Assembly (NCBI RefSeq): GCF_016097555.1 | Contig: NC_054707.1 | Coordinates: forward strand, 202,501 to 266,500 | Direction of reading: 5' to 3' | Length of the DNA stretch: 64,000 nucleotides | Source: Gigantopelta aegis | Lineage: Eukaryota; Mollusca; Gastropoda; Neomphalida; Peltospiridae | In this document: positions 3,917 through 55,622 of the stretch, one piece after another | Numbering within the stretch: the first letter of the stretch is position 1 | How the letters are laid out: each line of letters begins with the position of its first letter | Notes under the pieces: model-generated | Seen by the model: the letters and a program-made list of their open reading frames with translations, nothing else | Databases searched by the model: none | What the model was told of the DNA's origin: nothing | Program-made: the position numbers and the translations under genes

Positions 3917-4036
3917 ATGTCGACCGACATCCCTCACTTCGACATCAACATCAAACTAGAGACACCGGAGGACGACGCAGTGAAACTCGTCTGCAAACTG
4001 AAGTCGACATGGCCAGCGAAAGACATCAAGATCAAG
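3917..4036 (+). CDS. ETNK: ETNK exon 1 (coding)
   Basis: Codes residues 1-40 (starts MSTDIPHFD, ends AKDIKIK) and finishes in phase 0 at donor GTAATG. The ATG is the first in frame and leaves a short N-terminus like that of other ethanolamine kinases. Confidence 0.9.
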
Positions 4037-7000
4037 GTAATGCGCGCAAAATCCGGGAATGCACATTGCCTCGCGACACATGACAGGGGCGTAGCGTGGT
4101 CTGGACCGGGGGGGGGGGGGGGGGGAATTGGGGGGTCGAATATGAACCAAGTGGACCTTTTTCTATTTTGTTTTTGCACCACCCGAAACTCCATATTTAT
4201 AAACCTGTATGTTTTAGTACTGAAAGCGGACCATTTGCTTCAGCGGGGGGATGACCCCCCCCCCCAAGCCTACGCCCCTGCACGAGTCCGACTGCGATCA
4301 CTGCCGACTTAGCCGGCTAGGGCGGGTCTAGGGTTACATGGAGGAGGGATGGGGGCTTGTCAGCTTTTGCTGAAAATGTCTATCTCTGTAAAGCAATATT
4401 TCATATTAATTATTGTACCACGCTTTGGTGTCGGTCCCTTTGATTTTACCCGTGGTGTATCCCATTGGTATTAGAACATTGTTTTAAAAAGTACTTTCAC
4501 TAACATTAGTAATAAAATTAAAATATAAATTGTATCGATAAATATAAAATAATTATTTTCTTAAGAAAAAAAAATATATTAACAGCACTAGTATAATATC
4601 CATCCGGTACCCCCATTATTATTTTTAGTTAGGGTTACCGTTAGGGGGTTAGGATTCGGGTTTGGGTGAGGGTTAGGGGAGAGGGGGGGGGGGGGAACTG
4701 TGTGGCTATTTTCCTCTTAACCCAGTTGAATCCAGTTCTACGTGCAGGGATAAGTTCAGCCTGCCGTTTGTGTGTGTGTGCACACATGTTAATCTTGTAT
4801 TTTATAGCCACCTACCCCCCCCCCCCCGATAAAAAACTGCCCCCTCTACCCCACAAAGGTAGTAGTAGGCTAATAATAATAATAGTAATTGTAAAATAAT
4901 TGTGTATTATTATTATTATTATTATTAATTATTATCATGACATGTATTATAATGTCGCAGTAGGGTGGGTGAGGACGATTGTTACAGAAACATTACATAA
5001 ATTTAGAGGGGGACCCGGGAGTGGTCTCAGCATTACTGGTATAAAAAATATGTATTTTGAGGTTTATTGCCCCATGCAATTTTGCACATTTGAAATATGA
5101 CTAAATACAGCAAAATAACCTTTTAAGCATATTTATTTGCGGTAAAATTAACTTTTTACAAAATTTAGGTAAGCAGCCTCAGAATTGCAATCAGTGAAAA
5201 ATTATCACGTTCAAGCCCTGTTGTTTGTTTGTGTACTGTCCGAAGTTGGTTTCTCTTTCAGATAATCTACCTCAGCAGCTGATAATTTGTAATTTTTATT
5301 TATTTATTTATTCATTCATTACTTTTTTTTATTATTATTTTTAATTTATTATTATTAATTTGTTGTTGGCACTGTAGGGGTAATATTACACTATTCATAT
5401 GTCTATGGAAAACATATACAAAAGGGTCTGCCATATAATATACAATCCTCTCCTCTACCCTGATCAGACAACGCACTGTTCGTACAATACTTAGTATGTA
5501 TAATACTTAGTATGTAGTCCTCCTGTTCCAGATGGTTCATATAATATACAATCCTCTCCTCTACCCTGATCAGACAACGCACTGTTCGTACAATACTTAG
5601 TATGTATAATACTTAGTATGTATTCCTCCTGTTCCAGATGGTTCATATAATATACAATCCTCTCCTCTACCCTGATCAGACAACGCACTGTTTGTACAAT
5701 ACTTAGTATGTATAATACTTAGTATGTAGTCCTCCTGTTCCAGATGGTTCAGTAATATGGATCAATCAAATACTTATTTACGGCCTATATACATTTTTCC
5801 TGTGAATATAGCCAGCCCTTGTTAGCGGAGGCTATATACACGGCCGTCGTATATATAGTCACATTGTGTATAAACACCGTCTAGTTCAGAATATTCTTTA
5901 AAAATGTAACAATTCCTATATCCCAAGTCAGCTGTTATGGCATATTTTGCATAATAATGAGTTTGACAAGGTGGAAAATGGTGTTTGTGATCCAGATGTT
6001 TAGAGTTTTTCGCATACGACTGACGAAAATTTACCTACATGTATATAGATGCAAAGGCCTAACTAGTTGGGATTGTCAGTGTTTTAAATGCTTCTGTTAC
6101 TAAAATAAATTAATGTATAAGCTTACTCAGTACATATTTTTATTAATTTTTAATAACTTCTTTTCATTTTTATTGTTTTTCAATTTACCCTACGTCGCAG
6201 AGGACGGTCAAGCGTTCTCGCTACACGAGCTTGGTGAATCGTTTTGACAGTGTGGTTATTCGGGGGATGCCCGTCACGTGACTCAAAATAATACGTCACA
6301 CATCTGCTCTCCAAATAGCCGTTATTTTTCTCAGAATTATGGACCGTACCCATAATTCAATTTTTTTTTTATAAAATATCAATAATAAATGGGATATGGT
6401 GGTTATGTAGATGGTTCAATAAAGTACTTTTAGGTAAAAATCAAATGTATATATTGTCATATAATACTTTGTTGGATCAATAATTAGGTCAATCATCGGT
6501 GACTGAGTGCCTTTAAATAGTTTCGTTTCATTTTCCATTACATTACTTTATCAATTGCAACATTTGAAAAGGACACCTCCTGTATAGAGGGCGTTAGCAG
6601 TGTTAAAAAGGACGCCTATAGTAAGAGGTCATGGCACACCACCCACTTTTCCATGTTACACTGTTCAAAAGGCTTGAAATGTATTTAGCCCGAGTACTCT
6701 GACTTCCTTCCTATCAAGGAACATAATTCGCTATGCAAGTTTCAGAGATCACTACACTATTTTAAAACATAAAACAATAGTTGCTACAATTTTCAATTGA
6801 CTAGAAATGTCGCTAATCAAAACTCTGAAGGAAAACCACTGTTCTCTGTCTGAAAAACATTCAGTGCTGTACCCAGTGAGATGAAGGGCTGAAAACTGTC
6901 CATAGTCTCTAGCTTGAGCAGACCATCACTTTCTTTGCTTTTTTTATATATATTTTTTTAACTGGATCAGACCTCGCTATGAAATTGTTCAGACGAGTGT

Positions 7001-10000
7001 TTAATTGCCCCCCTAATGTAATTTATGTGGGAAGCCATATTTCAATATTGAACATTAATATTTAATTCTATTGTTTAAGTTTTTTAATTAGCATTCTAAG
7101 GGAAGCTTAAAATTACTTTCTTTGAACTAGTGCCTGCAGATGTTGGGGTCTGCTGCCCCACCCTCTTGTTATATTTGTCAATGTCCAACCTCATATACTT
7201 GCACCAACTAGAATCTGTTTATTGATTTTTTTAATTCAAGATTAAGTTAAAAAAAGAGAAAAGTTCTTCAAAAATTACCAATAAATTCCATCTCCTTTTT
7301 GATCAGAGATAAAGGCATCTGCTGGAACAGCCAAGGTAGGCAATTGCATGTGAAGTTGTGTGTTTTGCCCCTGTGTGGTTATGCCGTGTCGTACATTCTT
7401 GAAAAAATATGAGTTACCTGTTGTGATAATTCAGTGACTGTGTGAGGTGTTCAGTCAAACAGACTCTTTAGATGTTTTCAGTGTTTTATGAACATTGTGA
7501 AATGTAGTCTAGACAAGCTCTCTGTAACTGAGCTGTGATGGTGTGTAATGTAGTCTAGTCAAGCTCTCTGGAATTGAGCTTGACTCGTGATGGTGTGGAA
7601 TATAGTCTAGACAAGCTCTCTGTAACTAAACTGTGATGGTGTGGAATGTAGTCTAGACAAGCTCTCTGTAACTGAACTGTGATGGTGTGGAATGTAGTCT
7701 AGACAAGCTGTCTGTAACTGAACTGTGATGGTGTGGAATGTAGTCTAGACAAGCTCTCTGTAACTGAACTGTGATGGTGTGGAATGTAGTCTAGACAAGC
7801 TCTCTGTAACTGAGCTGTGTTGTTGTGGAATGTAGTCTAGACAAGCTCTCTGGAACTGAGCTGGACTCGTGATGGTGTGGATTGTAGTCTAGACAAGCTC
7901 TGGAACTGAGCTGGACTTGTGATGATGTGGAATGTAGTCTATACAAGCTCTGTAACTGAGCTGTGATGGTGTGGAATGTAGTCTAGACAAGCTCTCTGTA
8001 ACTGAACTGTGATGGTGTGGAATGTAGTCTAGACAAGCTCTCTAGAACTGAGATGTACTCGTTATGGTTTGGAATGTAGTCTATACACGCTCTGTAACTG
8101 AGCTGTGATGGTGTGGAATGTAGTCTAGACAAGCTGTCTGTAACTGAACTGTGATGGTGTGGAATGTAGTCTAGACAAGCTGTCTGTAACTGAACTGTGA
8201 TGGTGTGGAATGTAGTCTAGACAAGCTCTCTGTAACTGAACTGTGATGGTGTGGAATGTAGTCTAGACAAGCTCTCTGTAACTGAGCTGTGTTGTTGTGG
8301 AATGTAGTCTAGACAAGCTCTCTGGAACTGAGCTGGACTCGTGATGGTGTGGATTGTAGTCTAGACAAGCTCTGGAACTGAGCTGGACTTGTGATGGTGT
8401 GGAATGTAGTCTATACAAGCTCTGTAACTGAGCTGTGATGGTGTGGAATGTAGTCTAGACAAGCTCTCTGTAACTGAACTGTGATGGTGTGGAATGTAGT
8501 CCAGACAAGCTCTCTAGAACTGAGATGTACTCGTTATGGTTTGGAATGTAGTCTATACACACACTGTAACTGAGCTGTGATGGTGTGGAATGTAGTCTAG
8601 ACAAGCTCTCTGTAACTGAACTGTGATGGTGTGGAATGTAGTCTAGACAAGCTCTCTGTAACTGAACTGTGATGGTGTGGAATGTAGTCTAGACAAGCTC
8701 TCTGGAACTGAGCTGTACTCGTTATGGTGTGGAATGTAGTCTAGACAAGCTCTCTAGAACTGAGATGTACTCGTTATGGTTTGGAATGTAGTCTATACAA
8801 GCTCTGTAACTGAGCTATAACAGTGATGGTGTGAAATGTAATCTAGACAAGCTCTCTGGAACCAATTTATAATAGTGATGGTGTGGAATGTAATCTAAAC
8901 AAGCTGTATAGAACTGAGTTGTTATAGTGATGAAGTGGAATGTATTCTAGACAAGCTTTATAGAACTGAGTTGTTACAATGATGGTGTGAAATGTAGTCT
9001 AGACAAGCTGTATAGAACTGAGTTGTTATAGTGATGGTGTGGAATGTAGTCTAAACAAGCTCTCTAGAATTGAGTTGTTATAGTGATGGTGTGAAATGCA
9101 GTCTAGACAAGCTCTCTAGAACTGAGTTGTTATAGTGATGGTGTGGAATGCAGTCTAGACAAGCTCTCTAGAACTGAGTAGTTATAGTGATGGTGTGGAA
9201 TGTAGTCTAGACAAGCTCTATAGAACTGAGTTGTTATAGTGATGGTGTGGAATGCAGTCTAGACAAGCTCTCTAGAACTGAGTTGTTATAGTGATGGTGT
9301 GGAATGCAGTCTAGACAATCTCTCTAGAACTGAGTTGTTATAGTGATGGTGTGGAATGCAGTCTAGACAAGCTCTCTAGAACTGAGTAGTTATAGTGATG
9401 GTGTGGAATGTAGTCTAGACAAGCTCTATAGAACTGAGTTGTTATAGTGATGGTGTGGAATGCAGTCTAGACAAGCTCTCTAGAACTGAGTTGTTATAGT
9501 GATGGTGTGGAATGCAATCTAGACAAGCTCTATAGAACTGAGTTGTTATAGTCATGGTGTGGATTATGAAATGTAGGAAGGAAGGAAGAAAATGTTTTAT
9601 TTAACGATGCACTCAACAATTTTTTTTACGGTTATATCAGCATCGAACATATGGTTAAGGACCACACAGATATTGAGAGAGGAAACCTGCTGTTGCTACT
9701 TCAAGGGCTACTCTTTTCGATTAGCAGCAAGGATCTTTTATATACACCATCCCACAGACAGGATAACACATACTACAGCCGTTGATATACCAGTAGTGAT
9801 GCACTGGCTGGAGTGAGAAATGGCCCAATGGGCCCACCGACAGGGATTGATCCCAGACTGATCGCACATCAAGAGAACGTTTTACCACTGGGCTATGTCC
9901 CGCCCCCTGTGAAATGTAGGAACAGATCTTATTGGAGGTCCGAGGCATTACAGGGTTCACCTACACAGTGTCACCCACTTCATGGAGGTGTATGACCACC

Positions 10001-13000
10001 TACACAGTGTGTCACCCACTTCACGGAGGTGTATGAGCACCTACACAGTGTCACCCACTTCACGGAGGTGTATGACCACCTACACAGTGTGTCACCCACT
10101 TCACGGAGGTGTATGAGCACCTACACAGTGTCACCCACTTCACAGAGGTGTATGACCACCTACACAGTGTCACCCACTTCACGGTGTAGTTACGAGTGTG
10201 TCTGCTGGGGGTATGACCACATACACAGTGTCACCCACTTCACGGTGTAGTTACGAGTGTGTCTGCTGGGGGTATGACCACATACACAGAGTGTCACCCA
10301 CTTCACGGGTGTAGTTACTAGTGTGTCTGCTGGGGGTATGACCACATACACAGTGTCACCCACTTCACGGGTGTAGCTACGAGTGTGTCTGCTGGGGGTA
10401 TGACCACATACACAGTGTCACCCACTTCACGGTGTAGTTACGAGTGTGTCTGCTGGGGGTATGACCACATACACAGTGTCACCCACTTCACAGTGTAGTT
10501 ATGAGTGTGTCTGCTGGGGTATGACCACATACACAGTGTCACCCAGTTCACGGGTGTAGTTACGAGTGTGTCTGCTGGGGGTATGACCACATACATAGTG
10601 TCATCCAGTTCACGGGTGTAGTTACGAGTGTGTCTGCTGGGGGTATGACCACATACACAGTGTCACCCCCTTCACGGGTGTAGGTACGACTGTGTCTGCT
10701 GGGGGTATGACCACATACACAGTGTCGCCCACTTCATGGTGTAGTTACGAGTGTGTCTGCTGGGGTATGACCACATACACCGTGTCACCCACTTCACGGT
10801 GTAGTTACGAGTGTGTCTGCTGGGGTATGACCACATACACAGTGTCACCCACTTCACAGTGTAGTTACGAGTGTGTCTGCTGGGGGTATGACCACATACA
10901 CAGTGTCACCCACTTCATGGGTGTAGTTACGAGTGTGTCTGCTGGGGGTATGACCACATACACAGTGTCACCCACTTCACGGTGTAGTTATGAGTGTGTC
11001 TGCTGGGGTATGACCACATACACAGAGTGTCACCCACTTCACGGGTGTAGGTACGAGTGTGTCTGCTGGGGGTATGACCACATACACAGTGTCACCCACT
11101 TCATGGTGTAGTTACGAGTGTGTCTGCTGGGGTATGACCACATACACAGTGTCACCCACTTCACGGTGTAGTTACGAGTGTGTCTGCTGGGGGTATGACC
11201 ACATACACAGTGTCACCCACTTCACGGTGTAGTTACGAGTGTGTCTGCTGGGGGTATGTCCACATACACAGTGTCACCCACTTCACGGTGTAGTTACGAG
11301 TGTGTCTGCTGGGGGTATGACCACATACACAGAGTGTCACCCACTTCATGGGTGTAGTTACGAGTGTGTCTGCTGGGGGTATGACCACATACACAGTGTC
11401 ACCCACTTCACAGGTGTAGTTACGAGTGTGTCTGCTGGGGGTATGACCACATACACAGTGTCACCCACTTCACGGTGTAGTTACGAGTGTGTCTGCTGGG
11501 GGTATGACCACCTACATAGAGTGTCACCCACTTCACGGGTGTAGTTACGAGTGTGTCTGCTGGGGGTATGACCACATACAGAGTGTCACCCACTTCACGG
11601 TGTAGTTATGAGTGTGTCTGCTGGGGGTATGACCACATACAGTGTCACCCACTTCATGGTGTAGTTACGAGTGTGTCTGCTGGGGGTATGACCACATACA
11701 CAGTGTCACCCACTTCACGGTGTAGTTACGAGTGTGTCTGCTGGGGGTATGACCACATACACAGAGTGTCACCCACTTCATGGTGTAGTTACGAGTGTGT
11801 CTGCTGGGGGTATGACCACATACACAGAGTGTCACCCACTTCACGGTGTAGTTACGAGTGTGTCTGCTGGGGGTATGACCACATACACAGAGTGTCACCC
11901 ACTTCATGAGTGTAGTTACGAGTGTGTCTGCTGGGGGTATGACCACATACACAGAGTGTCACCCAGTTCACGGGTGTAGTTACGAGTGTGTCTGCTGGGG
12001 GTATGACCACATACACAGTGTCACCCACTTCACGGGTGTAGGTACGAGTGTGTCTGCTGGGGGTATGACCACATACACAGTGTCACCCACTTCATGGGTG
12101 TAGTTATGAGTGTGTCTGCTGGGGGTATGACCACATACACAGTGTCACCCACTTCACGGGTGTAGTTACGAGTGTGTCTGCTGGGGGTATGACCACATAC
12201 ACAGTGTCACCCACTTCACGGTGTAGTTATGAGTGTGTCTGCTGGGGTATGACCACATACACAGTGTCACCCACTTCACGTTGTAGTTACGAGTGTGTGC
12301 TGGGGGTATGACCACATACACAGAGTGTCACCCACTTCACGGGTGTAGTTACGAGTGTGTCTGCTGGGGGTATGACCACCTACACAGTGTCACCCACTTC
12401 ACGGGTGTAGGTACGAGTGTGTCTGCTGGGGGTATGACCACATACAGAGTGTCACCCACTTCACGGGTGTAGTTACGAGTGTGTCTGCTGGGGGTATGAC
12501 CACATACACAGTGTCACCCACTTCACGGTGTAGTTACGATTGTGTGCTGGGGGTATGACCACATACACAGAGTGTCACCCACTTCACGGGTGTAGGTACG
12601 AGTGTGTCTGCTGGGGGTATGACCACATACACAGTGTCACCCACTTCACGGTGTAGTTATGAGTGTGTCTGCTGGGGTATGACCACATACACAGTGTCAC
12701 CCACTTCACGGGTGTAGTTACGAGTGTGTCTGCTGGGGGTATGACCACCTACACAGTGTCACCCACTTCACGGGTGTAGGTACGAGTGTGTCTGCTGGGG
12801 GTATGACCACATACAGAGTGTCACCCACTTCACGGGTGTAGTTACGAGTGTGTCTGCTGGGGGTATGACCACATACACAGTGTCACCCACTTCACGGTGT
12901 AGTTACGATTGTGTGCTGGGGGTATGACCACATACACAGAGTGTCACCCACTTCACGGGTGTAGGTACGAGTGTGTCTGCTGGGGGTATGACCACATACA

Positions 13001-16000
13001 CAGTGTCACCCACTTCACGGTGTAGTTATGAGTGTGTCTGCTGGGGTATGACCACATACACAGTGTCACCCACTTCACGGTGTAGTTACGAGTGTGTCTG
13101 CTGGGGGTATGACCACATACACAGTGTCACCCACTTCACGGGTGTAGTTACGAGTGTGTCTGCTGGGGGTATGACCACATACACAGTGTCACCCACTTCA
13201 CGGTGTAGTTATGAGTGTGTCTGCTGGGGTATGACCACATACACAGTGTCACCCACTTCACGGTGTAGTTACGAGTGTTTGCTGAGGGTATGTCCACATA
13301 CACAGAGTGTCACCCACTTCACGGGTGTAGTTACGAGTGTGTCTGTTGGGTGTATGAATCCACATAGACAGTGTCACCCACTTCACGGGTGTAGTTACGA
13401 GTGTGTCTGTTGGGTGTATGAATCCACATAGACAGTGTCACCCACTTCACGGGTGTAGTTACGAGTGTGTCTGTTGGGTGTATGAATCCACATAGACAGT
13501 GATCACCTGGCAGACACTGCAGGTTTCAAGTGGCTCCGGTAATACCAAGATAGCTTAACAGACAGCATATGTATTGGCTATTGATTAACCCTGATATAGA
13601 GCCTGTAATACAGTTGATATACATTGCTTTCTTTTCAGTACTTAATATATGTATTGGCTGTTGATTAACCCTGATATAGAGCCTGTAATACAATTAATAT
13701 ACATTGCTTTCTTTTTAGTACTTAATATATGTATTGGCTGTTGATTAACCCCAATATAGAGACTGTAATACAGTTGATATACATTGCTTTCTTTTTAGTA
13801 CTTAATATATGTATTGGCTGTTGATTAACCCCAATATAGAGACTGTAATACAGTTGATATACATTGCTTTCTTTTCAGTACTTAATATATGTATTGGCTG
13901 TTGATTAACCCCAATGTAGAGACTGTAATACAATTAATATACATTGCTTTATTTTCAGTACTTAATATATGTATTGGCTGTTGATTAACCCTGATATAGA
14001 GCCTGTAATACAATTGATATATACTCTTCAAAAAAAGAAACGCAAAAGGGTACAAATGGGTTATAACTCCGATTTTATGTTTCCTACCGGTTCATGCTTT
14101 GTGAATATAAGGTCATTGCATGTCCCAAACACATTCCCACGGTTACATTCGATAAAACACAGCTACTGTACAATAAAGTTCCAAAATGTGAATATTCGCA
14201 AAAACGCAGCCACGTGCAAGCCATGTCACCACTGCACGTGCGTTGTCTGCACGTGCAACATGAACACCGACAGTATAAAAGTGCAGGGTGTTCGCTTGCC
14301 TGGCCTCTGTATCTGGCCGACAGTTGACAATGCAGGACATGCCACGTCTCAGTGAACCGCAGAGAAACAATGCCATCGGCCGACTAGACGCAGGCGAATC
14401 CAGAACGGCCGTTGCCAGGGCATTCCATGTGTCCCCAAGCACCATCTCCAGACTGTGGGACCGTTACCAGCAACATGGATCAACACGTGACCTCCCTAGA
14501 TCCGGTCGACCACGGGTCACTACCCCCGGGCAGGACCGCTACATCCAGGTACGCCACCTTCGGGAACGATTGACTACTGCCACCTCCACAGCCGCAGCAA
14601 TACCAGGTTTGCGCAGGATATCCGACCAGACCGTACGGAACCGCCTACGTGAGGTAGGAATTCGTGCCAGACGTCCAGTTCGAGGTGTCATCTTAACACC
14701 ACAACACCGTCGACTCCGACTGCAGTGGTGCCAGATTCATCGACAATGGCCTCAACTGCGATGGAGACAGGTGTGGTTCAGTGACGAGTCCCGATTTCTG
14801 CTCTGACGTCATGATGGAAGATGTCGCGTGTATAGGCGTCGTGGTGAACGTTATGCGGCAAACTGCGTGCAGGAAGTGGACAGATTCGGCGGGGGTAGTG
14901 TCATGGTGTGGGCAGCCATCTCACACACTGGCAGAACTGACCTGGTCCACGTGCAGGGCAACCTGAATGCACAGGGCTACATTGACCAGATCCTCCGGCC
15001 ACACATCGTTCCAGTTATGGCCAACGCCAACGCAGTGTTCCAACATGACAACGCCAGGCCTCACACAGCACGTCTCACAACGGCTTTCCTACAGAACAAC
15101 AACATTAATGTCCTTCCTTGGCCATCGATATCACCGGATTTGAACCCAATTGAGCATCTATGGGACGAGTTGGACCGACGCCTCCGACAGCAACAACCAC
15201 AGCCCCAGACCCTGCCCGAGCTGGCAGCAGCCTTGCAGGCCGAGTGGGCCACCATCCCCCGGGACGTCATCCGTACTCTGGTTGCTTCAATGGGCAGGCG
15301 GTGCCAGGCAGTTGTCAACACACGCGGAGGCCACACCCGGTATTGATTCCAGATGACCTTGACCTTGGTGGTGTGTCCTATCACTTACTCACAATGGACT
15401 AGAGTGAATTGTGAACAATCCTGCAACATTTGGTAATTATCGGACTCACCATTCAATAATTAAATCAATTCTCCAAATGTTACGACAATGTGGTTTTGCG
15501 TTTCTTCTTTTGAAGAGTATACATTGCTTTTTTTTTCAGTACTTAATATATGTATTGGCTGTTGATTAACCCTGATATAGAGCCTGTAAAACAATAATAA
15601 TAAGAAGAAGAAGAATAATAAAATCTTTATTTATAGAAGATAACTCAGTTAGTTCTAGACTATTCTCCTCTGAGGCCTTCTTACTAATTATAATAATAAT
15701 AACAATAATCATATTAATTATTAAAAATAAAAACTAAGAAAACCATACATGTATGTACAATATATACAACCATACAAGATATTAAGACATAATTATGTAG
15801 TAGAGCAATCATGTTTCTAAGAAGTGTTTGTAAAACATTTTCTTAAGTATATTTAAACTAGTACATTTTTTAACATCATTAGATAAACTCTTCCAGATAC
15901 CGACTCCAGAAAATTGAAAACATTTCTTGTAGTGCTCTATTTTTGGTCGGGGAGCTAACATATTTCCATCGTCAATGGAGCGAAGTTCATAAATTGATGA

Positions 16001-19000
16001 TATTGGATTGAACAGGTCTCTGAGGTCCTGATTAGTAAGTCCGTTTAGTGTTTTATATACAAGAATGGCTTTTTGATATTTGACTCTTCTGTTTATTTTT
16101 AACCACTTTAGTTCATGAAAAAGTAAATCAGTTGGATCATCAGGTGATTTGTCAAAAATAATATGTGCTGTTCTTTTTTGTAATTTATTTATTCTTTCTA
16201 AGTCTAATTTAGAACAATTTCCCCATATGGTCAAGCAGTAATCGAATAATGGTTGAATATAAGCATTAAAATACACTATTCTAATGTTTAGAGGAAGATA
16301 CTTCTTTATTTTTGCTAGCAGAGTTATTTTTGAAGTTAGTGCTTTGTATACCTTGTCAACTTGTGTATCCCATTGAAGAAAACTGTCTATATATGTTACA
16401 GTTAATCTGTATAATCAGGTAATATGTATATTAGCTGAAAAAAATCAGGTAATATACATATTACCTGAAATATACTTCACTAATTTATACAGATTACCTG
16501 AAACGTGCAGAATGGTATTAACAAGTCTTTAGATCAATGTAGACCAAGTTCTCAGTTCAAAACAAGTCTTTTGATCAATGTAGTCCATGTTCTCAGTTCA
16601 AAACAAGTCTTTTGATCAATGTAGTCCAAGTTCTCCTTGATTGGTCACAATACCTTTGATGTACATGTTCATTGTTAAATCATTTCATAGACAATGTTAC
16701 AGTTAATCTGTATAATCCACCACTGCTGTTTTAACTAATCCTGTCTGTAGAGCACAATCAAGATGTGCCAACCTGCTAGGATGCAGATGGGATTAGTTGG
16801 AAAAACAATGCTTGATTTAGGCTGCTAATTTCCTTTGACTGGCTTCATTTGATTGGTAGGTATAAATATCCTGGTGAATGGTGTTCTCTGTCACTAGCAA
16901 AATGGATGTAGAGGAGACTTTCAGGCGTTCGCTGTACACGAGTTATGGAGAGAATAAGTGTATCTTGCTACCTAAGGACGAATACATTAAGACTGTTGGC
17001 GAGTTGCTGGAAGCCACCCAGGCACCCAAGAAATCACTGTGTCAGGAAAATCCACTGTACTTCGCTACCATCGAGGAGACCGTTGACATCATCAAGCGTG
17101 CCCACATCGCTACTGGTCATGGAGGACGAGACAAGATGATCAAGGAGATCAACAAGAAGTATGCCAACATCACCCAGGATGCTATTACCTTGTTCAAGTC
17201 CATGTGCATCGAGTGCCAGAGAAAACAGAAACGGACAACTACCAAGGGAATTGTCGTCAAACCAATCCTGTCTAAGGACTTCAGTTCCAGAGCGCAAGTT
17301 GACCTCCTGTCTGCAGTATCCCATCCAAACCCAGTCGAGCAATCCAGCGAGGAAGCAGAACCTGTACCAGTCTCACCCATCTCTATACGTCAGGAGGAAA
17401 TTAGGCTGCAGAGAGAGAGTGCCAGAGATGCCCAGTTCCAGCAGGCAGAGAGAATGGTCAAACGAAGTCGCATTGTGTTTTCTAGTGTGCAAATCAAAAG
17501 CAATGTGACAGTGCCCATTCCTTCAGTTGACAGAGGACGTGCAGATCCTAGGAACATCATTGGAGTTGTGACAGAGTGCAGTGAGAACGAGTTGTACATA
17601 ATTGCTGTAAAAGGAGGAATATTGGATCGAAAGTAATCAAGAAACCAATTCGATGTGTGTGCTACGACATTGTATTCACCCGATGATGTCTGTACAGATA
17701 AGGAATTTCCCTGTGTCAAGTTGTGCAACTGGAGTCAAGATGCGGTGGACAAGGTTTCACAAGATGTAACTGTGCTGGAAGTAAGAGGTGTCAGACAAAT
17801 CGATGTAAATGCTTCAAAGCCAGATTGGTGTGCAATTCCCGCTGCCATTCCAGCCTGCCATGCATAAACAAGAACTGTTGTTGATGAGAACTTTGACTAC
17901 ATTGATCAATAGACTTGTTTTGAACTGAGAACTTTGACTACATTGATCAATAGACTTGTTTTGAACTGAGAACTTTGACTACATTGATCAAAAGATCTTG
18001 TTGTTTGTTCTGCAGTAGTGTGTGTGTTGTGTGTTGCAAATGGTATGTGTTTTGACCGCGTAATAACAGATGCAGTAAGGTTTAATAATTTGGGGCTTTT
18101 ACAATTAATATACATTGCTTTTTTTTCAGTACTTAATATATGTATTGGCTGTTGATTAACCCTGATATAGAGCCTGTAATACAGTTGATATATATTGCTT
18201 TCTTTTCAGTACTTAATATAGGTATTGGCTGTTGATTAACCCTGATATTGAGCCTATAAGGTATCAATAAATACTGTTTGACTGCTTTCTTTCCAGTACT
18301 TCACGGCAGGCATCTCTAACTTCCTGATGGGCTGCTACCTCCCGGAGAAGCCAGACGACATTGTTCTAATTCGGATTTACGGCGAAAGTTCGGAACTCTT
18401 CACCGACCGCAGCGCTGAGAGACAAGCTTTCAATATTCTCCACCAAGCAGGGCTCTCTGCCCCCATGTACTGTACGTTCGATAATGGCATGGCATACGGC
18501 TATCTCAAGGGGAAACCACTCACACAGAAAATGGCCATCCATGATGAAAATATTAGGAAGTATGTTAAATTGGTGTTACATACACACTGGAGCAATATAC
18601 CAGGGCTGCAGAAAGTGCTCGCCCGGTCGCCAAATGCAAGTAAAAATTCTGATGGACTAGATACAAAATGCAACTACAAGTCCAACGGGCAATCTGTCTT
18701 TTTCTGACTGACTAATTTAATTTGTTCTATACATATTTTGTCTTTGCATTGAATCCGCGATGTGTTCTGAATAGATTGTTCTGTTAAACTCTTTCAGGAT
18801 GTCACTTGAATTTTGTAAATCTATATAAAAGAAATGTGAAAACTTAGTATTTACCAGAGTATTTAAAAATGTATTGATTTTTGTCAGTCAAGGTCTGGGT
18901 CTTGTTTTCGTTTGTTATATGATGTTGATCACTTACCAAATGTCCTTAATTTTTTGTCATTATATATGCCAGGCTAGTAAATTTTAGTTGGTTCTGGTCC

Positions 19001-21699
19001 AGAGGACTAGTGAAATATTTTCTATTTCTGCACACCTGTATATTGTGTATTACACACAGTGGCATAATAAATGTATAACTTACACACTGGGGCAATATAA
19101 TGTGTATTACACAGTGGCGTATTAAATGTATAACATACACCATGGGACAATATATTGTGTATTACACACAGTGGCGTAATAAATGTATAACATACACCCT
19201 GGGGCAATATATTGTGTATTACACACAGCAGCGTAATAAATGTATAACATACACCGTGGGGCAATATATTGTGTATTACACACAGTGGCATAATAAATGT
19301 ATAACTTACACACTGGGGCAATATATTGTGTATTACACACAGTGGCGTAATAAATGTATAACATACACCATGGGGCAATATATTGTGTATTACACACAGT
19401 GGTGTAATCAATATATAACAGTGATAGAAATGAGCAAATTTGTTTACAAGTCCAGCGCACAAATACATCTAGAAATCTACTTGTCAGCCAATATTTTCAC
19501 GTGTCCAAATAAATGGTTTGTTTTGTTCAAGTACCAGGATGATGATTGTGATTGCTCAAACTGAGATTGCATTGAATAACCACCGAGGCACATTTTGCTT
19601 GTCCAAATAGATTCTCACTTGTCTGGACAAATGGACAAGTACTTATTTTGAACACTATAACTTACACACTGAGGCAATGTATTGTGTATTACTCACAGTG
19701 ACATAATAAATGTATTACATACACATTGAGGTGATGTATTGTGTATACATATAAATTGGGGTAATGTATTGTGTGTTACACACAATGGAGTAAAGAATTT
19801 ATTACATACACATTGGGGTAATGTATTGTGTAGTACGTACATTGGAGTAATAAATGTATTGCATACAAACTAGGGTAATGTATTGTGTGTTACACACAAG
19901 GGTGTAATAAATGTATTTCATACACATTGAGGTAATATACATATATTACGTTTTACACACAATGGCATAATAAATGTATTGTATACACATTGGGATTATA
20001 TAATTGTGTATTACACACAATAGCATAATATATGTATTACATACACATTGGGGATATATATTGTGTATTAAACTCAATGGCGTAATATATGTATTGCATA
20101 CACATTGAGGTTATATATTGTGTATTGCACACAATGGCGTAATGCATGTATCACATACATTGGGGTAGTATATTGTGTATTACACACATTGATGTAATAT
20201 ATGTATTACATACACATTGGGTTAATATATTGTATATTACATCACAGTTTCTACACTCACATTTAATGTTATTTGAGAACTTCATATTTGCTATATTTTC
20301 AGTAACCTATTGATACGACTAAAACTATTCACTTGTCAGACATTGTATTTATGGATTGTTTTCTAGGATTCCTCCAGAACCATAAATATAATTTAACATA
20401 GATATTTTGGGATTATGGCTCATAATCTATTGCTTCTGAACCAAATTCAGGGATTTGTACAGCAAGCACAGAATCAAGCTAAATTTGCTGCATGCTTATT
20501 GTTTATTGTTTTCAGATTGATAGCTCAAGAAATGGCCAAACTCCATTCACTCAATGGACCTGAGGGAGATGGGAAGAAAGTCTTGTTTTTCTTTAAGAAG
20601 ATGGATATTTTCTTCAGCCTCTGTCCAGACAGCTTTCCAGATCCTGAGAAACAGAAAATGTAGGTCACAGACTCAGCCTGAATAATCTATTTGTTTTCAT
20701 AGTGTGGTCTCTCAATAATTTCATACCTACGGAAAAACATCCATTAGGAATGTATCATTAGGATGATCAGAAACACACTTGATATACAGCCACTGATAGT
20801 TTATACAGAACTAGTGAAAATCATTTAATATGTAATTATAGTTAATAAAACATTTCTGTTGGTCAGCAATGTCTCAACAATGGCAACAAACTCGGTTCAT
20901 TTAATTTTGTAATTAACAATCTCACCCACTTGTTTTTACTGATAATGTTTAACTATTAAAATTCTTTAGTAATACATGTACAGAGCTGGCCAAAAGTACT
21001 CGTCCGCACGAGTAAAAATTTACTCGGACGAGTAAATATTACAATTCAGTTGTCCGCCGGGCAACCAAAATTTCTGAACACAAACTGCCTCTTTATCCCT
21101 TTTGTAGCCTACACTTGCCATTTTTGTAATTCCGTAGCCTGCAGCAAGCGTCGTCCACCATTTCAAAGCTTGGCCAAGACCGTGAGATTGTTCACAGACT
21201 TTGGTTGGTGGTGCAAGTAAAAAAAGTTATATCTCACTCAGTTTTTGGTGCATTGAAGGATCGAGGAAAAGCTGTTTACAACGTTATGATCTAGCATGTT
21301 ACCAAAATGGATAAGTAGACTCTTTGTAAAGTTAGTTTTTGCTTTATCTGTGTGAGCTCGCGCAACACATGTGTGACGTAAAAATAGGTCGGAATTCCCA
21401 CAGCACAGTCTATTTTTCACTAACATAGCAGTGTTTCGTATTACAAAATTAGGTTGTTCATCTGCAAATTTTCGCATTGTTTCCCAATTAAATTGATGTA
21501 TCAATGTACATATAATTAACATTTAATTGACTAATTGTTAAAGAACTGTGAGTAGGCGTGTGCAGGAAAATTTGTAACAGGATCTAAGCAGTCTCCGACT
21601 GTGTCGGGCTCACATCGAGAGCGCCAAACACCGTAGTCCGAAGTGACATAGAAAGTGTGATTCTTTCTACATCCCAATATTACATACCCTAAATATATA

Positions 21700-21786
<87 letters not shown>

Positions 21787-47938: not shown

Positions 47939-48019
47939 TGTTTCGATGCCGGGTAGAATCTGTAAGACTAAAATAACTCAGGGAATTGTGAAATGGGGAG
48001 AAATATTCATCGGAAAACA

Positions 48020-49278
48020 CTAATATAGGGCCTTCTCATGTAGACAAAACAGCACTAATATAGGGTTAACTCCATGTAGACAAAACAGCACTAATATAGG
48101 GTTAACTCCATGTAGACAAAACAGCACTAATATAGGGTTAACTCCATGTAGACAAAACAGCACTAATATAGGGCTAACTCCATGTAGACAAAACAGGACT
48201 AATATAGGGCCTTCTCATGTAGACAAAACAGCACTAATATAGGGCCTTCTCCATGTAGACAAAACAGCACTAATATAGGGTTAACTCCATGTAGACAAAA
48301 CAGCACTAATATAGGGCTAACTCCATGTAGACAAAACAGCACTAATATAGGGCTAACTCCATGTAGACAAAACAGCAGTAATATAGGGCTAACTCCATGT
48401 AGACAAAACAGCAGTAATATAGGGCTAACTCCATGTAGACAAAACAGCACTAATATAGGGCTAACTCCATGTAGACAAAACAGCAGTAATATAGGGCTAA
48501 CTCCATGTAGACAAAACAGCAGTAATATAGGGCTAACTCCATGTAGACAAAACAGCAGTAATATAGGGCTAACTCCATGTAGACAAAACAGCACTAATAT
48601 AGGGCTAACTCCATGTAGACAAAACAGCACTAATATAGGGCTAACTCCATGTAGACAAAACAGCACTAATATAGGGCTAACTCCATGTAGACAAAACAGC
48701 ACTAATATAGGGCTAACTCCATGTAGACAAAACAGCAGTAATATAGGGCTAACTCCATGTAGACAAAACAGCAGTAATATAGGGCTAACTCCATGTAGAC
48801 AAAACAGCACTAATATAGGGCTAACTCCATGTAGACAAAACAGCAGTAATATAGGCCTAACTCCATGTAGACAAAACAGCAGTAATATAGGGCTAACTCC
48901 ATGTAGACAAAACAGCACTAATATAGGGCTAACTCCATGTAGACAAAACAGCACTAATATAGGGCTAACTCCATGTAGACAAAACAGCACTAATATAGGG
49001 CCTTCTCATGTAGACAAAACAGCACTAATATAGGGCTAACTCCATGTAGACAAAACAGCACTAATATAGGGTTTACTCCATGTAGACAAAACAGCACTAA
49101 TATAGGGTTAACTCCATGTAGACAAAACAGCACTAATATAGGGCTAACTCCATGTAGACAAAACAGCACTAATATAGGGCTAACTCCATGTAGACAAAAC
49201 AGCACTAATATAGGGCCTTCTCCATGTAGACAAAACAGCACTAATATAGGGCTAACTCCATGTAGACAAAACAGCACT
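48020..49278. repeat. 36-bp minisatellite, about 35 copies
   Basis: The unit is ATGTAGACAAAACAGCACTA, then ATATAGGGCTAACTCC, with GCAGTAAT and GGGCCTTCTC variants. A multiple of three, it leaves a 263-codon minus-strand frame of 12-residue periods (LFCLHGVSPILV). It lies about 190 bp beyond the IMMP1L stop and could be part of its 3' UTR. Confidence 0.94.
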
Positions 49279-49467: not shown

Positions 49468-49524
49468 TTAGTTCATTTCATCTGGACAGAACTTCACAGT
49501 ACCAATGTCCTTAGGTGGCCAGAT
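49468..49524 (-). CDS. IMMP1L: IMMP1L last exon
   Basis: After a TTTCAG acceptor it codes [18 protein letters not shown] and TAA. IWP followed by a short polar tail is the typical IMMP1L end (human IWPLSDFG...). Confidence 0.9.
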   Translation of the reverse strand: MWPPKDIGTVKFCPDEMN

Positions 49525-52500
49525 CTGAAACAAACATTTAAATAAACAGTAGTACTTACAGTTAAAAAAACACTCTTTACAGACATACGGTAATAAACAT
49601 TTTAAATGATGAAATGTGCTGTTTTCAAAAATAAGATTTTGTTGTGTAAGAAGAATACACACAAGTTAAAACTGTTAAAGTTAAGTTTGTTTTGTTTAAC
49701 GACACCACTAATGCAATTTTGTTTATTAGTAATCCTTGGTTAAAGGACCGGCCTCTGTGGCATCGTGGTTAGGCCATCGATCTACAGGCTGGTAGGTCAT
49801 GGGTTCAGATCCCAGTCGAGGCATGGGATTTTTAATCCAGATACCAACTCCAAAGCCTGAGTGAGTGCTCCGCAAGGCTCAATGGGTAGGTGTAAACCAC
49901 TTGCACCGATCAGTGATCCATAACTGGTTCAACAAAGGCCATGGTTTGTGCTATCCTGCCTGTGGGAAATGCAAATAAAAGATCCCTTGCTGCCTGTCAT
50001 AAAAGAGTAGCATATGTGGTGATAGCGGGTTTCGTCTTAAAGACCATATGTTTGACGTCTAATAGCCGATGATAAGATAAAAATCAATATGTTCTAGAGG
50101 CGTCGTTAAATAAAACAAACTTTACTTTCATTGGTATACAGGTGCACATTTTTGTATGGGGCAGACTGGCTTTTGCCCGAATTAAACGAAAATGCCCGAA
50201 TCTTCATTTATTCATATTAGCATTACTAGCATAGGGTTGCAAAGGAATCACTATGCATTTTTACATGGATTACAACTACTTTTGAGGGTAGAATGATGGA
50301 AATACATGGTAAAAAGGTCTCAGGTTAGCACATTTTTCTAGAATATCTGTATACGTTTTGCCCGAATTTGAGGTTTTGCTCAAGTACCCCCTTGTGCCCT
50401 GTCTTGTATGCTTATGTTTGCATTAGCAGCAAGGGATCATGAACATCCACTTTCCCACAGATTGGACAGCACATACCACAGCCTTTGGGGAAATGATTAA
50501 AGTTTGATTTGCTTAACACCACCACTAGAGCACATTCTCTGATGTACTGATCATGAGCTATTGGGTATGTGCTCTAGTGGTGTTATTAAACAAACCAAAT
50601 TTTGTAACCGGCCTCGCTCGAGACCACTACAATGGGCCCAGCGACGGGGATCAATCCCAGGCCGACTGCACATCAGGTTAGCACTTTACCACTGGGCTCC
50701 ATCCCGCCCCAGTCATTATTCAATGTGTTCTAATGATGTTATTAAACAAAACATACTTTAACCAAATATATCTTTTTTTAACACCTTCACTTCAGATCAC
50801 GACCCAGACATTATACCAACCTTGAAGAAAACTCTGCTGCGTAACAAAGCATAGGGAACTGGTCCGTAAGTCCGTGAGTCCGTTGAGTTGTCTTTATTGT
50901 CGCCTTCCAGCCAGACGTGACCACGAGGAACCTGAAAGGGTTAAATCTTTAGTGGGTCGTCCAGTGGAATAATTCAGAGCTAACCAAATTAGCCAACTGT
51001 CAGTTTTAAAATCAACTGGTCAATTTTAGTTTAATTTTGTGAAATAAATTCATGTCATTATTCATATATGCAACTTGGGTGTCCTGCAATTTTTTATAGT
51101 TAAATACATAATTTGTCAAATGTATTCCAGGACTAGACTTTATTCCGCCAGTCACATTCCAATGAATTCTCCCCCACCCTAACCACTGGTCTCAAATTTC
51201 TGACCAACACACAAGACATGTTTACAAAATATAAATAAGGTATTATACACAAAGTATGTAGACAAAGACACATGACTGTCTCCCTGTAGTGGAGTACATA
51301 ACTCCTCACCTTCAGCCATATGTTAACATCCTCCATGCAGTCATGACTTAATTAACTAGAAACCGGCCTCGGTGGTGTCGTGGTAGGCCATCGGTCTACA
51401 GGCTGGTAGGTACTGCGTTCGGATCCCAGTCGAGGCTTGGGATTTTTATCCAGNNNNNNNNNNNNNNNNNNNNNNNNNNNNNNNNNNNNNNNNNNNNNNN
51501 NNNNNNNNNNNNNNNNNNNNNNNNNNNNNNNNNNNNNNNNNNNNNNNNNNNNNNNNNNNNNNNNNNNNNNNNNNNNNNNNNNNNNNNNNNNNNNNNNNNN
51601 NNNNNNNNNNNNNNNNNNNNNNNNNNNNNNNNNNNNNNNNNNNNNNNNNNNNNATGGTCTGTCTCGTCACACTGATGTGTTGACACAGTTAGGGTTAACT
51701 TACATCTGGATGGTCTGTCTCGTCACACTGATGTGTTGTCAATACAGTTAGGGTTAACTTACATCTGGATGGTCTGTCTCGTGACACTGATGTGTTCCGT
51801 CAGTACAGTTAGGGTTAACTTACATCTGTATGGTCTGTCTCGTCACACTGATGTGTTCCGTCAATACAGTTAGGGTTAACTTACATCTGTATGGACTGTC
51901 TCGTCACACTGATGTGTTGACACAGTTAGGGTTAACCTACATCTGTATGGTCTGTCTCGTCACACTGATGTGTTGACACAGTTAGGGTTAACTTACATCT
52001 GGATGGTCTGTCTCGTCACACTGATGTGTTCCGTCAGTACAGTATGGGTTAACTTACATCTGGATGGTCTGTCTCGTCACACTGATGTGTTCCGTCAGTA
52101 CAGTTAGGGTTAACTTACATCTGGATGGTCTGTCTCATCACACTGATGTGTTCCGTCAGTACAGTTAGGGTTAACTTACATCTGTATGGTCTGTCTCGTG
52201 ACACTGATGTGTTCCGTCAGTATAGTTAGGGTTAACTTACATCTGTATGGTCTGTCTCGTGACACTGATGTGTTCCGTCAGTATAGTTAGGGTTAACTTA
52301 CATCTGTATGGTCTGTCTCGTCACACTGATGTGTTGACACAGTTAGGGTTAACTTACATCTGGATGGTCTGTCTCGTCACACTGATGTGTTGTCAATACA
52401 GTTAGGGTTAACTTACATCTGGATGGTCTGTCTCGTGACACTGATGTGTTCCGTCAGTACAGTTAGGGTTAACTTACATCTGTATGGTCTGTCTCGTCAC

Positions 52501-55500
52501 ACTGATGTGTTCCGTCAATACAGTTAGGGTTAACTTACATCTGTATGGACTGTCTCGTCACACTGATGTGTTGACACAGTTAGGGTTAACCTACATCTGT
52601 ATGGTCTGTCTCGTCACACTGATGTGTTGACACAGTTAGGGTTAACTTACATCTGGATGGTCTGTCTCGTCACACTGATGTGTTCCGTCAGTACAGTATG
52701 GGTTAACTTACATCTGGATGGTCTGTCTCGTCACACTGATGTGTTCCGTCAGTACAGTTAGGGTTAACTTACATCTGGATGGTCTGTCTCGTCACACTGA
52801 TGTGTTCCATCAGTACAGTTAGGGTTAACTTACATCTGGATGGTCTGTCTCGTCACACTGATGTGTTCCGTCAGTACAGTTAGGGTTAACTTACATCTGG
52901 ATGGTCTGTCTCGTCACACTGATGTGTTCCGTCAGTACAGTTAGGGTTAACTTACATCTGGATGGTATGTCTCGTCACACTGCTGTGTTCCGTCAGTACA
53001 GTTAGGGTTAACTTACATCTGTATGGTCTGTCTCGTCACACTGATGTGTTCCGTCAATACAGTTAGGGTTAACTTACATCTGTATGGACTGTCTCGTCAC
53101 ACTGATGTGTTGACACAGTTAGGGTTAACCTACATCTGTATGGTCTGTCTCGTCACACTGATGTGTTGACACAGTTAGGGTTAACTTACATCTGGATGGT
53201 CTGTCTCGTCACACTGATGTGTTCCGTCAGTACAGTATGGGTTAACTTACATCTGGATGGTCTGTCTCGTCACACTGATGTGTTCCGTCAGTACAGTTAG
53301 GGTTAACTTACATCTGTATGGTCTGTCTCATCACACTGATGTGTTCCGTCAGTACAGTTAGGGTTAACTTACATCTGGATGGTCTGTCTCGTCACACTGA
53401 TGTGTTCCGTCAGTACAGTTAGGGTTAACTTACATCTGGATGGTCTGTCTCGTCACACTGATGTGTTCCGTCAGTACAGTTAGGGTTAACTTACATCTGG
53501 ATGGTATGTCTCGTCACACTGATGTGTTCCGTCAGTACAGTTAGGGTTAACTTACATCTGTATGGTCTGTCTCGTCACACTGATGTGTTCCGTCAGCACG
53601 ATGTCACTGCTGTGAATTGTGGGCTCCATGGATGGACCCTTGCACTGGAATATTTTAATATTTGTCAAACAATCAAATGCATTCTTGTTCAAACATAAAG
53701 CAATTGCAAGTTTTGAATGAGAGAATTCAAGTTTTAAAATTAAATTACATTTTTAACAGAATCAGATGACATGCATTCACCTATTTTTTAAAATGTTAAA
53801 TTTTGTTTTGTTTAACAAGACCACTAGAGCACATTGATTTATTAATGATCAGCCATTTGGTAAAGCTGTAAAAAAAATGTGTTTCTGATGACACAATCCT
53901 TCCTATATGGGTGAATGTAGTAAAAAAAAATGAAACAATAAAAATAATAAAATAATAAAAAATAAATAAAATAAAAAAATAAATAAAATTAAAGCTGACC
54001 ACCCTACCAAATTCTTTTTGGCATGTCTCCATTAAACACACATCTTAAAGGTGTAATAATAAGAATTTTTTGTGTGAATTTATCGATGGGTAACTACAAA
54101 ACTTTAGTATATATTATTTAAAGGGAGGGTAAACTCAAATAAGAGCCTTATGTGTTGGAAAGATGCATACCCGAACCACCAACACATACTGACACTTTAA
54201 CAAATGAAAAACGCGTAATTTTAGAATTAATAAAAAAAACATGATTATTCCTTCTAACTGGGGGCAGCCATTTTGTTTCATTTTTGTGACGTCCGGTGGT
54301 ATAGCTTGGGGCGAAGTGATGTCAGCTCCGTCCAACCTCTCTTAAGCACAGTGTAAACAAACGCTCTAACTTACGACAAGGCGCTTCGCTTTCATCAACC
54401 TGACTTGTAAAACAACATAAATGACTTGATAGTATAATAAACTATTTAACTAAAAATATTTCAATTTGCATCAATAGAATGAAATGGAGTTATAGTATTT
54501 TTCTCTTTTAAAAAAATTCAAAGCAAAAATGCTTATTATTACTATTAGGCCTATTGGTAGGGTACATTCGAACAAAAACGACCACTCACGATACCCAAGT
54601 GATAATTTTCTTTTCTTTGGGACTACATAATTGGTCAGTTTTGTGATTTTAGATGGGAAAGTCTACCTAATCAAGTGTTTTACAGAATTACTTACAGTAA
54701 TAAAGCAGCAGGACGGCTGGTAAGGTCCATTACGATTTGAGGTTATCACACAATACCTTGTGATCTTAATAAAAGAGGCACGTCTTTTTAGTGTGTCTAG
54801 ACACAGTGTCTGGGGACCGTCTAAATATACACCTACCAATCAGGAACCACAGGCAAAAGGCCACAGAAAGAAAAGACCAATTAACCAAGAACACACTCCG
54901 ATTATTATTTCAGTATGTGGGTTAACTTATGTACAAAACAAGTATATATTATTTTTCAATACAAAATAATCCACCATTGTCAAAGTGTTGAAATAACTAT
55001 ATTATGTTGCCGGCTTACTGGGATGGATATTATTACAGAACATTGCGATGCATCTGCAAAAAAGCAGGTATTTTTTGTTTCTTCAGTTCGAAGACTAATT
55101 CCTGACGTGACATGTTAGGTATTACGTAATCACCAGCTCGCCAGAGGGCGTATTCAGTGGGATGGTACAAAATGGCTGCACCCGTTATATATAATAGCAG
55201 TCACATTTAAGCGTTTTATTAATTAACTACACGATTATACTTGTTGATATTACACAATAATGTGCGTTATATATCGTTGAATATGCATACCAGGCCAAAT
55301 GCCTTAATTACCCCTTCCTTTAAAGTGCTTCACTTATATGAAATTTTATACAATTTGTGACTTTTATACATCTGTAAGTCAGAAAAAAATTAAATTAAAT
55401 CTAAACAATGTTGTACTTACAGACACAAAGTCTACGACAAATTCCAGTGAACAGTGCGCGATACATCCATACTGCAGAATGCTAATTAAAATTCCTCCCG

Positions 55501-55537
55501 TCTTTGACAAGATCCTGCCAAACATTGAGACAGTCAT
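49468..55537 (-). CDS. IMMP1L: Mitochondrial inner membrane protease subunit 1, one exon in assembly gap
   Basis: A signal-peptidase-type Ser/Lys protease of the inner membrane that trims intermembrane-space sorting signals and normally works with IMMP2L. Visible exons, in order: 55537-55421, 53644-53556, 50931-50821 and 49524-49468, all with GT-AG junctions. They encode a membrane-anchor region with [13 protein letters not shown], the catalytic-serine box [20 protein letters not shown] and [20 protein letters not shown], and the end [18 protein letters not shown]. The part with the catalytic Lys (KRVIGLEGD in other species) is not found and should lie in an exon within 51454-51653. Visible parts total 123 residues; adding about 42 missing ones gives the usual ~166. 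Starting at the second Met (55525) puts the serine at residue 40, as I recall for human IMMP1L. Confidence 0.92.
49680..50118 (+). mobile_element. SINE with a second head type
   Basis: After an inverted tail piece at 49683-49735, the head ACCGGCCTCTGTGGCATCGT, then GGTTAGGCCATCG, then GGGTTCAGATCCCAGTCG (B box), joins a TTGCACCGATCAGTGATCCA spacer to the same body as the other SINEs (CTATCCTGCCTGTGGGAAAT, then the tail GGCGTCGTTAAATAAAAC). It shows that at least two tRNA-like heads share one body. Confidence 0.85.
50430..50765. mobile_element. Composite SINE fragments, tail-to-tail palindrome
   Basis: Minus-strand body (GCAGCAAGGGATCATGAAC to CACATACCACAGCCTTTGG) precedes two tails meeting head-on at 50504-50597 (CACCACCACTAGAGCACAT against ATGTGCTCTAGTGGTGTTA). 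A minus-strand head then follows (CCACTGGGCTCCATCCCGCC at 50688-50708) and another plus tail ends at about 50760. Confidence 0.75.
50821..50931 (-). CDS. IMMP1L: IMMP1L exon with GHVWLEGDN motif
   Basis: 37 codons, phase 0 at both ends: [20 protein letters not shown], then [31 protein letters not shown] and YGP are conserved in the IMP1 branch of signal peptidases. Confidence 0.95.
50932..51362. other. IMMP1L intron, unique part
   Basis: AT-rich. I looked here on the minus strand for the missing KRVIGLEGD-type exon and did not find it. Confidence 0.6.
51363..51453 (+). mobile_element. SINE head (second type) running into the gap
   Basis: ACCGGCCTCGGTGGTGTCGT, then GTAGGCCATCGGTCTACAGG and GGATCCCAGTCGAGGC match the head at 49750-49860. 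The rest is cut by the N gap. Confidence 0.85.
51454..51653. other. Assembly gap (200 N)
   Basis: Exactly 200 undetermined bases, probably an arbitrary gap length. One side is a SINE and the other the 61-bp array. By gene order it must contain, or be next to, the missing IMMP1L exon. Confidence 0.95.
51654..53612 (-). repeat. 56-61-bp array carrying the IMMP1L exon 2 end and donor, ~33 copies
   Basis: On the minus strand each unit reads GACGGAACACATCAGTGTGA, then CGAGACAGACCATACAGAT, then GTAAGTTAACCCTAACTGTA: about 40 nt of IMMP1L exon 2, its donor GTAAGT, and 15-20 nt of intron. The genuine exon (53644-53556) is the outermost unit. Variants of 56, 59 and 61 bp differ in the linker. Ordered variants recur at 654 bp (for example 51735 and 52389; 51890 and 52544), so the array also grew by larger blocks. 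Confidence 0.95.
53556..53644 (-). CDS. IMMP1L: IMMP1L exon 2 with catalytic serine
   Basis: 29 codons plus two bases: [20 protein letters not shown], then ISVTRQTIQ. Ser of SMEPT is the catalytic nucleophile of signal-peptidase-type enzymes. The acceptor is ATTCCAG and the donor GTAAGT. Its last 40 nt are the source, or a member, of the tandem array. Confidence 0.94.
53613..54121. other. IMMP1L intron 1, with SINE tail fragment
   Basis: Apart from exon 2, holds a minus-strand SINE tail (TTTTGTTTTGTTTAACAAGACC at about 53801-53860) and an A-rich (AAATAAAAT)n-like tract at 53920-53990. Confidence 0.6.
54122..55319. mobile_element. TTAA-site transposon, copy 2 (~1.2 kb)
   Basis: Flanked by TTAA (54118-54121 and 55320-55323), starts AGG and ends CCT. 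It follows copy 1 (23713-24888) in the same orientation along its whole length (GAGCCTTATGTGTTGGAAAG, GGGGGCAGCCATTTTGTTTC, GTTATCACACAATACC and so on), with moderate divergence. No transposase. It lies in IMMP1L intron 1. Confidence 0.87.
55421..55537 (-). CDS. IMMP1L: IMMP1L first coding exon
   Basis: 39 codons from the first Met ([15 protein letters not shown], then [20 protein letters not shown]), ending phase 0 at donor GTAAGT. The second Met (55525) gives the same spacing to QYGCIAHC as the human protein, so it may be the true start. A hydrophobic ILISIL stretch fits the membrane anchor. Confidence 0.92.
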
Positions 55538-55552
55538 CTTCCCAACATCACT

Positions 55553-55622
55553 AGAGAAACACACACGGCATGATGGATGAAGATACCTGAAACACACACG
55601 GCATGATGGATGAAGATACCTG
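55553..55622 (-). repeat. 33-bp duplication containing the 5' UTR acceptor
   Basis: On the minus strand, GTGTTTCAG followed by GTATCTTCATCCATCATGCC occurs twice, 33 bp apart (CAG at 55589-55587 and 55622-55620). Either copy can be the acceptor of the first coding exon; an upstream non-coding exon is implied but not located. Confidence 0.75.

Follow-up and report, generated by a model that had tools for sequence, protein, structure and literature searches.

Tandem arrays over exon-intron boundaries in two genes of the gastropod Gigantopelta aegis resemble the mirages of amphioxus

We analyzed a stretch of 64,000 nucleotides from the gastropod Gigantopelta aegis (assembly GCF_016097555.1, contig NC_054707.1, positions 202,501 to 266,500), hereafter called the window. 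It carries an ETNK-type ethanolamine kinase gene (3917..36313, plus strand) and an IMMP1L-type gene of a mitochondrial inner membrane peptidase (49468..55550, minus strand). Both genes contain tandem repeats whose unit includes a splice junction. An earlier note on this DNA had listed, for about 20 junctions of the two genes, five clear arrays of this kind and one weaker one, and proposed them as a candidate for an undescribed phenomenon. It turned out that four units contain the junction, one unit only abuts it, and the unit of the weak case lies only beside it. The phenomenon itself has already been published for amphioxus (PMC3087553, PMC3902484), where junction-spanning arrays go by the name of mirages. 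Repeats at such boundaries have been described in human genes as well. The window arrays are probably minisatellites of the mirage type, which arise by ordinary local tandem duplication and are hidden from selection by the use of the exon-proximal copy of the splice site.

From the sequence we read 23 splice junctions in the two genes; both junctions of ETNK intron 8 depend on a last exon that is itself uncertain. Each junction, with its surrounding bases, was then matched to nearby places, and the threshold score was set at 14. A score of at least 14 was reached through a local repeat at 5 of the 23 junctions, namely the acceptor of ETNK intron 1, the donor of intron 4, the donor and the acceptor of intron 6, and the donor of IMMP1L exon 2. 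The IMMP1L exon 2 donor (53555) is the finest case in the window. Its 61-mer array (51654..53596, minus strand) has 32 copies including the real one; in each unit about 40 bases come from the exon and 21 from the intron. The exon-derived part of the copies is 82–100% identical to the true exon end, and a GTAAGT or GTAGGT donor is present in every one of the 32 copies. At the donor of ETNK intron 4 (GT at 22857), Tandem Repeats Finder (TRF) detected a 23-mer array (22852..23632, plus strand) that begins 5 bp within exon 4. It has about 33 copies including the real one, with 5 exonic bases per unit, and the GT is kept in 28 of the 32 extra copies.

Copies of the ETNK intron 1 acceptor form an 80-mer array on the plus strand (13567-14021, ~15518-15599 and 18100-18259; TRF and genome search), with the real acceptor at 18297. 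The unit carries a polypyrimidine tract, AG and TACTT and shares 5 exonic bases; the AG is kept in all seven extra copies. The middle piece surfaced in a whole-genome search, between two pieces already known. Apparently, this was a single array that was later split by insertions. A transposase frame (14279-15346) adjoins the array and appears to interrupt it.

At the acceptor of ETNK intron 6, TRF and the junction test revealed two 16-mer copies (29426..29457, plus strand) that read CAG and, across the junction, GCATCACA. They do not adjoin the real acceptor (29596) and are displaced 162 and 146 bp upstream of it; their cross-junction scores are 15 and 12, with 8 exonic bases in each. The first base of the 27-mer array at the donor of the same intron (27112..27216, plus strand; TRF and junction test) stands exactly at the donor GT (27112), and the match is wholly intronic (0 bases exonward). 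Exonic bases are included in the units of the 80-mer, 23-mer, 16-mer and 61-mer, and none were seen for the 27-mer. In the weak case, a 33-mer repeated 2.2 times (55556..55629, minus strand; TRF) lies next to the acceptor of IMMP1L exon 1. It bears acceptor-like AGs; the real acceptor differs from them, fails the match test and lies outside the unit. A 45-mer array (35508..36216, plus strand) ends 40 bp short of the ETNK intron 7 acceptor without spanning it and is not a case. We also left uncounted the acceptors of ETNK introns 3 and 4, whose regions at exons 4 and 5 (22714-22736 and 25878-25902) are alike, with a junction-centred score of 14–15 against each other. This likeness, over a distance of 3.2 kb, may be due to chance or to an old duplication.

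The 61-mer, 80-mer and 23-mer were searched in the 1.15 Gb assembly (1,149,253,464 bases) with very common words skipped, and each matched its own locus only. The three arrays are apparently of single-locus origin. Counting the extra copies of eight arrays, we found GT or AG intact in 92 of 97; the copies had been selected by their likeness to the junction, which favours intact dinucleotides. Read-through past the IMMP1L exon 2 donor meets a stop immediately, and read-through past the ETNK intron 4 donor meets a stop inside the first repeat unit. Therefore, the exon-proximal donor is presumably used in both places. Past the donor of ETNK intron 6 the frame is open across the whole 27-mer array; if an inner donor of this array were used, nine-residue repeats would be added to the protein. 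The intact dinucleotides and the early stops fit a suggestion of the earlier note that arrays are retained because a usable site remains.

The recurrence of such arrays in other genes of the genome was assessed in the TCP1/HSP60 family (PF00118), an independent sample picked blind to repeats. It covers nine loci, weaker exon matches having been added, and 116 junctions inferred from 64 exons. We excluded matches that lay on unplaced contigs or outside the retrieved stretches, copies that were isolated or had a single exon, and exon ends at the first or last positions of the profile. Three matches were trimmed or split by hand, and 80 myosin and 14 aldehyde dehydrogenase matches are not part of the sample. 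For kinesin, we took the 10 best-ranked chromosomal stop-free exons of 124 matches, with a flank of 300 bp only. The junctions of these independent genes were set by a splice-site score; some may be misplaced, and a few kinesin donors are low-scoring.

In the family, 7 of 116 junctions scored at least 14, spread over five of the nine loci, and the other 109 had no such copies. By eye, the copies at four of these junctions include exonic bases: the C4c donor, the C11 acceptor and two acceptors of C4a. Exonic bases are fainter at the C3 donor, where one degenerate copy scores 15 and a second is a poorer match, and the arrays at the C3 acceptor and the C7 donor abut the junction. Among exon-interior positions, 10 of 611 had copies. 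No copy with a score of at least 14 was found at the 20 junctions of the ten kinesin exons within the 300 bp flank. These figures, 7/116 and 0/20, give a first rate from genes picked blind to repeats. TCP1-family matches with short interruptions and in-frame stops were also seen on small unplaced contigs (e.g., C758, C950 and C861), which may be haplotigs, pseudogenes or sequence of another organism. The mollusc haemocyanin domain is likewise found in the assembly on unplaced contigs.

Mirages were reportedly first described in a 2002 paper in Nucleic Acids Res. In amphioxus, they are minisatellite-like tandem duplications over exon-intron boundaries, at donors as well as acceptors, and occur in the genes for Adh, the globins BflGb6 and BflGb9, troponin C and PGBD5 (PMC3087553, PMC3902484); reverse transcription PCR suggests regular splicing (PMC3087553). 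The window cases show every testable feature of this description. The unit spans the boundary at four window junctions and likewise at C11, at C4a (twice), at C4c and, in degenerate form, at C3. Both boundary types are affected in several genes, that is, in the two window genes and in five of the nine family loci (with exonic bases in four), with none in the ten kinesin exons. As in amphioxus, many copies, not all, keep AG or GT, the unit length varies, and the units are locus-specific with no shared satellite, as judged here from the three arrays searched. The intact ETNK frame is consistent with regular splicing. The gastropod host and the size of the two largest arrays (32–33 copies) differ from amphioxus.

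Two human variants of the CBS gene also carry tandem copies at or over a splice junction: a 31-bp variable number tandem repeat at the exon 13/intron 13 boundary (PMC1395315, PMC5188458), and 844ins68, a duplicated intron 7/exon 8 junction in which the distal site is used and the upstream extra copy is removed (PMC2630376). Unlike the window arrays, these concern a single gene, and their polymorphism is known. In human segmental-duplication genes, internal tandem repeats at boundaries alter splicing, with 27 intron modifications (PMC2812944); they were found by comparison of recent paralogs and concern novel introns, whereas the window arrays lie in existing introns. A tandem duplication crossing an intron-exon boundary, as here, has also given rise to a new intron (PMC4974935), while in the window an existing intron holds the copies. 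Among the literature matches listed, we found no mirages or boundary minisatellites in molluscs. An abalone minisatellite is intronic, without a boundary (PMC6905558), and first-intron minisatellites of an earthworm are reported with no boundary stated (PMC12783039). Our cases thus extend mirages, a name met only in the lancelet literature as far as we found, to a mollusc.

The mirage-type explanation can be put as follows. A short local tandem duplication would by chance extend across an exon edge, or begin exactly at it, and would then expand and homogenise like other minisatellites of a repeat-rich genome. The exon-proximal copy would stay intact and the splicing machinery would go on using it, while the extra copies would sit within the intron and be excised along with it. 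Selection would therefore hardly see them. Both the choice of the splice site and the near-neutrality of the arrays, which we infer from analysis, are supported by the amphioxus mirages and by human CBS 844ins68.

The earlier note had also offered an alternative, that splice edges are a preferred birthplace of arrays. A polymerase paused at the polypyrimidine tract, R-loops or nucleosome edges might then promote tandem duplication. We regard this as rather unlikely, and support for it in our data is weak, though donors as well as acceptors are affected. The two possibilities were compared by several tests, of which those in the window are all post hoc, the window having been chosen because it was striking. 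Tandem arrays make up about 33% of the window and 19% of the nine family loci, and the very uneven content per locus (0.5–43%) speaks against a birthplace at splice edges, as do the kinesin junctions.

The first null within the window gave a strong-looking pattern. With units as targets, 0.75 cases were expected (P = 0.037 for 3, 0.0055 for 4 and 0.0006 for 5), and a crude edge test with 3 arrays gave P values between 2.5e-6 (0 bp) and 0.009 (20 bp). Stricter controls weakened the pattern. When arrays were placed at random inside their own introns and near-edges within -20..+10 bp of junctions were counted (the sliding test), the window had 2 near-edges where 0.71 were expected (P = 0.15), or 3 where 1.19 were expected (P = 0.10). 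For the matched control we took pseudo-junctions with a unique exon-side flank from the same introns. At score 14 it gave 4/21 window junctions against 69/1775 (P = 0.009); at scores 18–30 P was 0.08–0.11, and a further comparison gave 2/21 against 39/1775 (P = 0.08). The duplications themselves are real beyond doubt, and their clustering at window junctions depends on the test chosen.

In the family, the matched intronic background at score 14 (108/2807) was similar to the junction rate (6/114; ratio 1.4, P = 0.28), which counts for the mirage-type explanation. At score 30 the ratio rose to 2.7 (5/114 against 45/2807, P = 0.04), and with the match forced to span both sides the ratios were 1.7–2.3 (P = 0.15–0.26). 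Such low ratios are arguments against a birthplace at the splice edge.

Several results nevertheless weigh against plain tolerance of the arrays. In the sliding test of the family (55 gaps), 6 near-edges were found against 1.66 expected (P = 0.004), and for arrays of at least 3 copies 4 against 0.89 (P = 0.0076); under a wider exon margin the expectation rose to 2.75 for the same 6 and P climbed to 0.045. The density of array edges per junction per kb was highest at the junctions (1.67, compared with 0.83 at 11–41 bp and 0.2–0.6 past 42 bp), and the edge-density tests gave P = 0.0014–0.015 (0.0006–0.0021 for the first 88 junctions). The window junction rate of 4/21 exceeds its matched control. 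The flank rule drops two real junctions per sample, including the true cases IMMP1L exon 2 donor and C4c donor; lifting it for real junctions only, which leans toward enrichment, gave for the family 7/116 (ratio 1.6, P = 0.17) and 6/116 (ratio 3.2, P = 0.014), and for the window ratios of 5.5–5.9 (P = 0.002–0.018). Finally, the dinucleotide has a lower mismatch rate than the rest of the copy sequence (2.7% against 6.2%, six arrays, P = 0.055), so that the extra copies could be under constraint; homogenisation alone can give the same result.

Because of the junction-edge excess in the family and the window rate above its control, tolerance alone may not explain everything. Depending on the test, splice edges may be struck about 1.4- to 3.6-fold more often than other intron positions, an excess that is not firmly established. 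Arrays do not avoid junctions, and their excess there is modest and lacks robustness. Junctions are unlikely to be true hot spots, at which a process tied to splice-site DNA or to transcription and splicing raises tandem duplication several-fold above the level of the nearby intron. If they were, hot spots common to lancelets and a snail would point to a general remodelling of intron edges in repeat-rich animal genomes.

The reduced mismatch and the well-kept GT and AG would also be expected if the extra copies were useful as amplifiers: through repeated binding of U1 or U2AF the arrays would aid exon definition and be kept by selection. However, homogenisation and the choice of copies by junction likeness yield the same pattern, and most family junctions have no such copies. 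Such a role is thus very unlikely. The earlier note had mentioned tandem duplication of splice-site sequence as a proposed route of intron gain. A reading of the arrays as traces of such intron gain (the Rogers or potato RdRp type) starts from an established route, in which duplication of a boundary gives a new intron (PMC4974935, PMC3087553, PMC2812944). Here, each spanning unit already holds exon and intron sequence; therefore the introns predate the arrays. In addition, the encoded ETNK aligns to solved kinases with a few extra residues at most and no inserted block, which makes intron gain highly improbable. Lastly, the window is rich in dispersed repeats and transposase frames, but copies of a mobile satellite inserting near exons would hardly hold exon bases of their own gene or match a single locus, as the 61-mer, 80-mer and 23-mer did in the search with very common words skipped, and we give this origin almost no credence.

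Such arrays keep spare splice sites by exons, a source from which alternative splicing or altered introns can arise. They can also mislead gene prediction and assembly: the IMMP1L donor array is bordered on one side by a run of exactly 200 N (window 51454-51653). The middle exon expected for IMMP1L was not identified on reading that intron region of the window. Given these two observations, the assembly may be broken at this place.

The ETNK gene was recognized by its open spliced frame and its Pfam and Protein Data Bank (PDB) matches. Its exons, read from the sequence, are 3917-4036, 18297-18559, 20516-20659, 22714-22856, 25882-25965, 26948-27111, 29596-29669 and 36257-36313 (alternative stop at 36317), and the reading frame is uninterrupted across all eight. 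The 3' end (the last exon or exons) is uncertain, with a possible short exon 9 at 37648. The product matches Pfam Choline_kinase over its entire length (residues 40–341, E = 3.1e-74), and its nearest solved structures are choline/ethanolamine kinases (PDB 3feg, E = 1.6e-37). The second gene, on the minus strand, matches S26 signal peptidase, and we take it to be IMMP1L. Its exons, assigned by translation, are 55550-55421, 53644-53556, 50931-50821 and 49524-49468. The C-terminal exons match Peptidase_S26 above the cut-off (E = 2.7e-8), and the N-terminal exons match it under the cut-off (E = 0.0039).

The transposase frame beside the 80-mer array and another at 40815-41882 (both on the plus strand) are closely similar by eye, and a third (716-1564, minus strand) is like them by eye; we presume that they belong to the Tc1/mariner-like family. 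A 78-mer tandem array (42637-43358) has a unit that resembles the head of the dispersed repeat of the window, which is presumably SINE-like (a short interspersed element). The patterns of the dispersed repeat had no match among viral or bacterial genome contigs or in paper texts, and ARAGORN found no tRNA genes. Just downstream of the IMMP1L gene, a 22-mer is repeated about 163 times in tandem (44380-47936), and beside it lies a 36-mer array of 35 copies (48018-49278).

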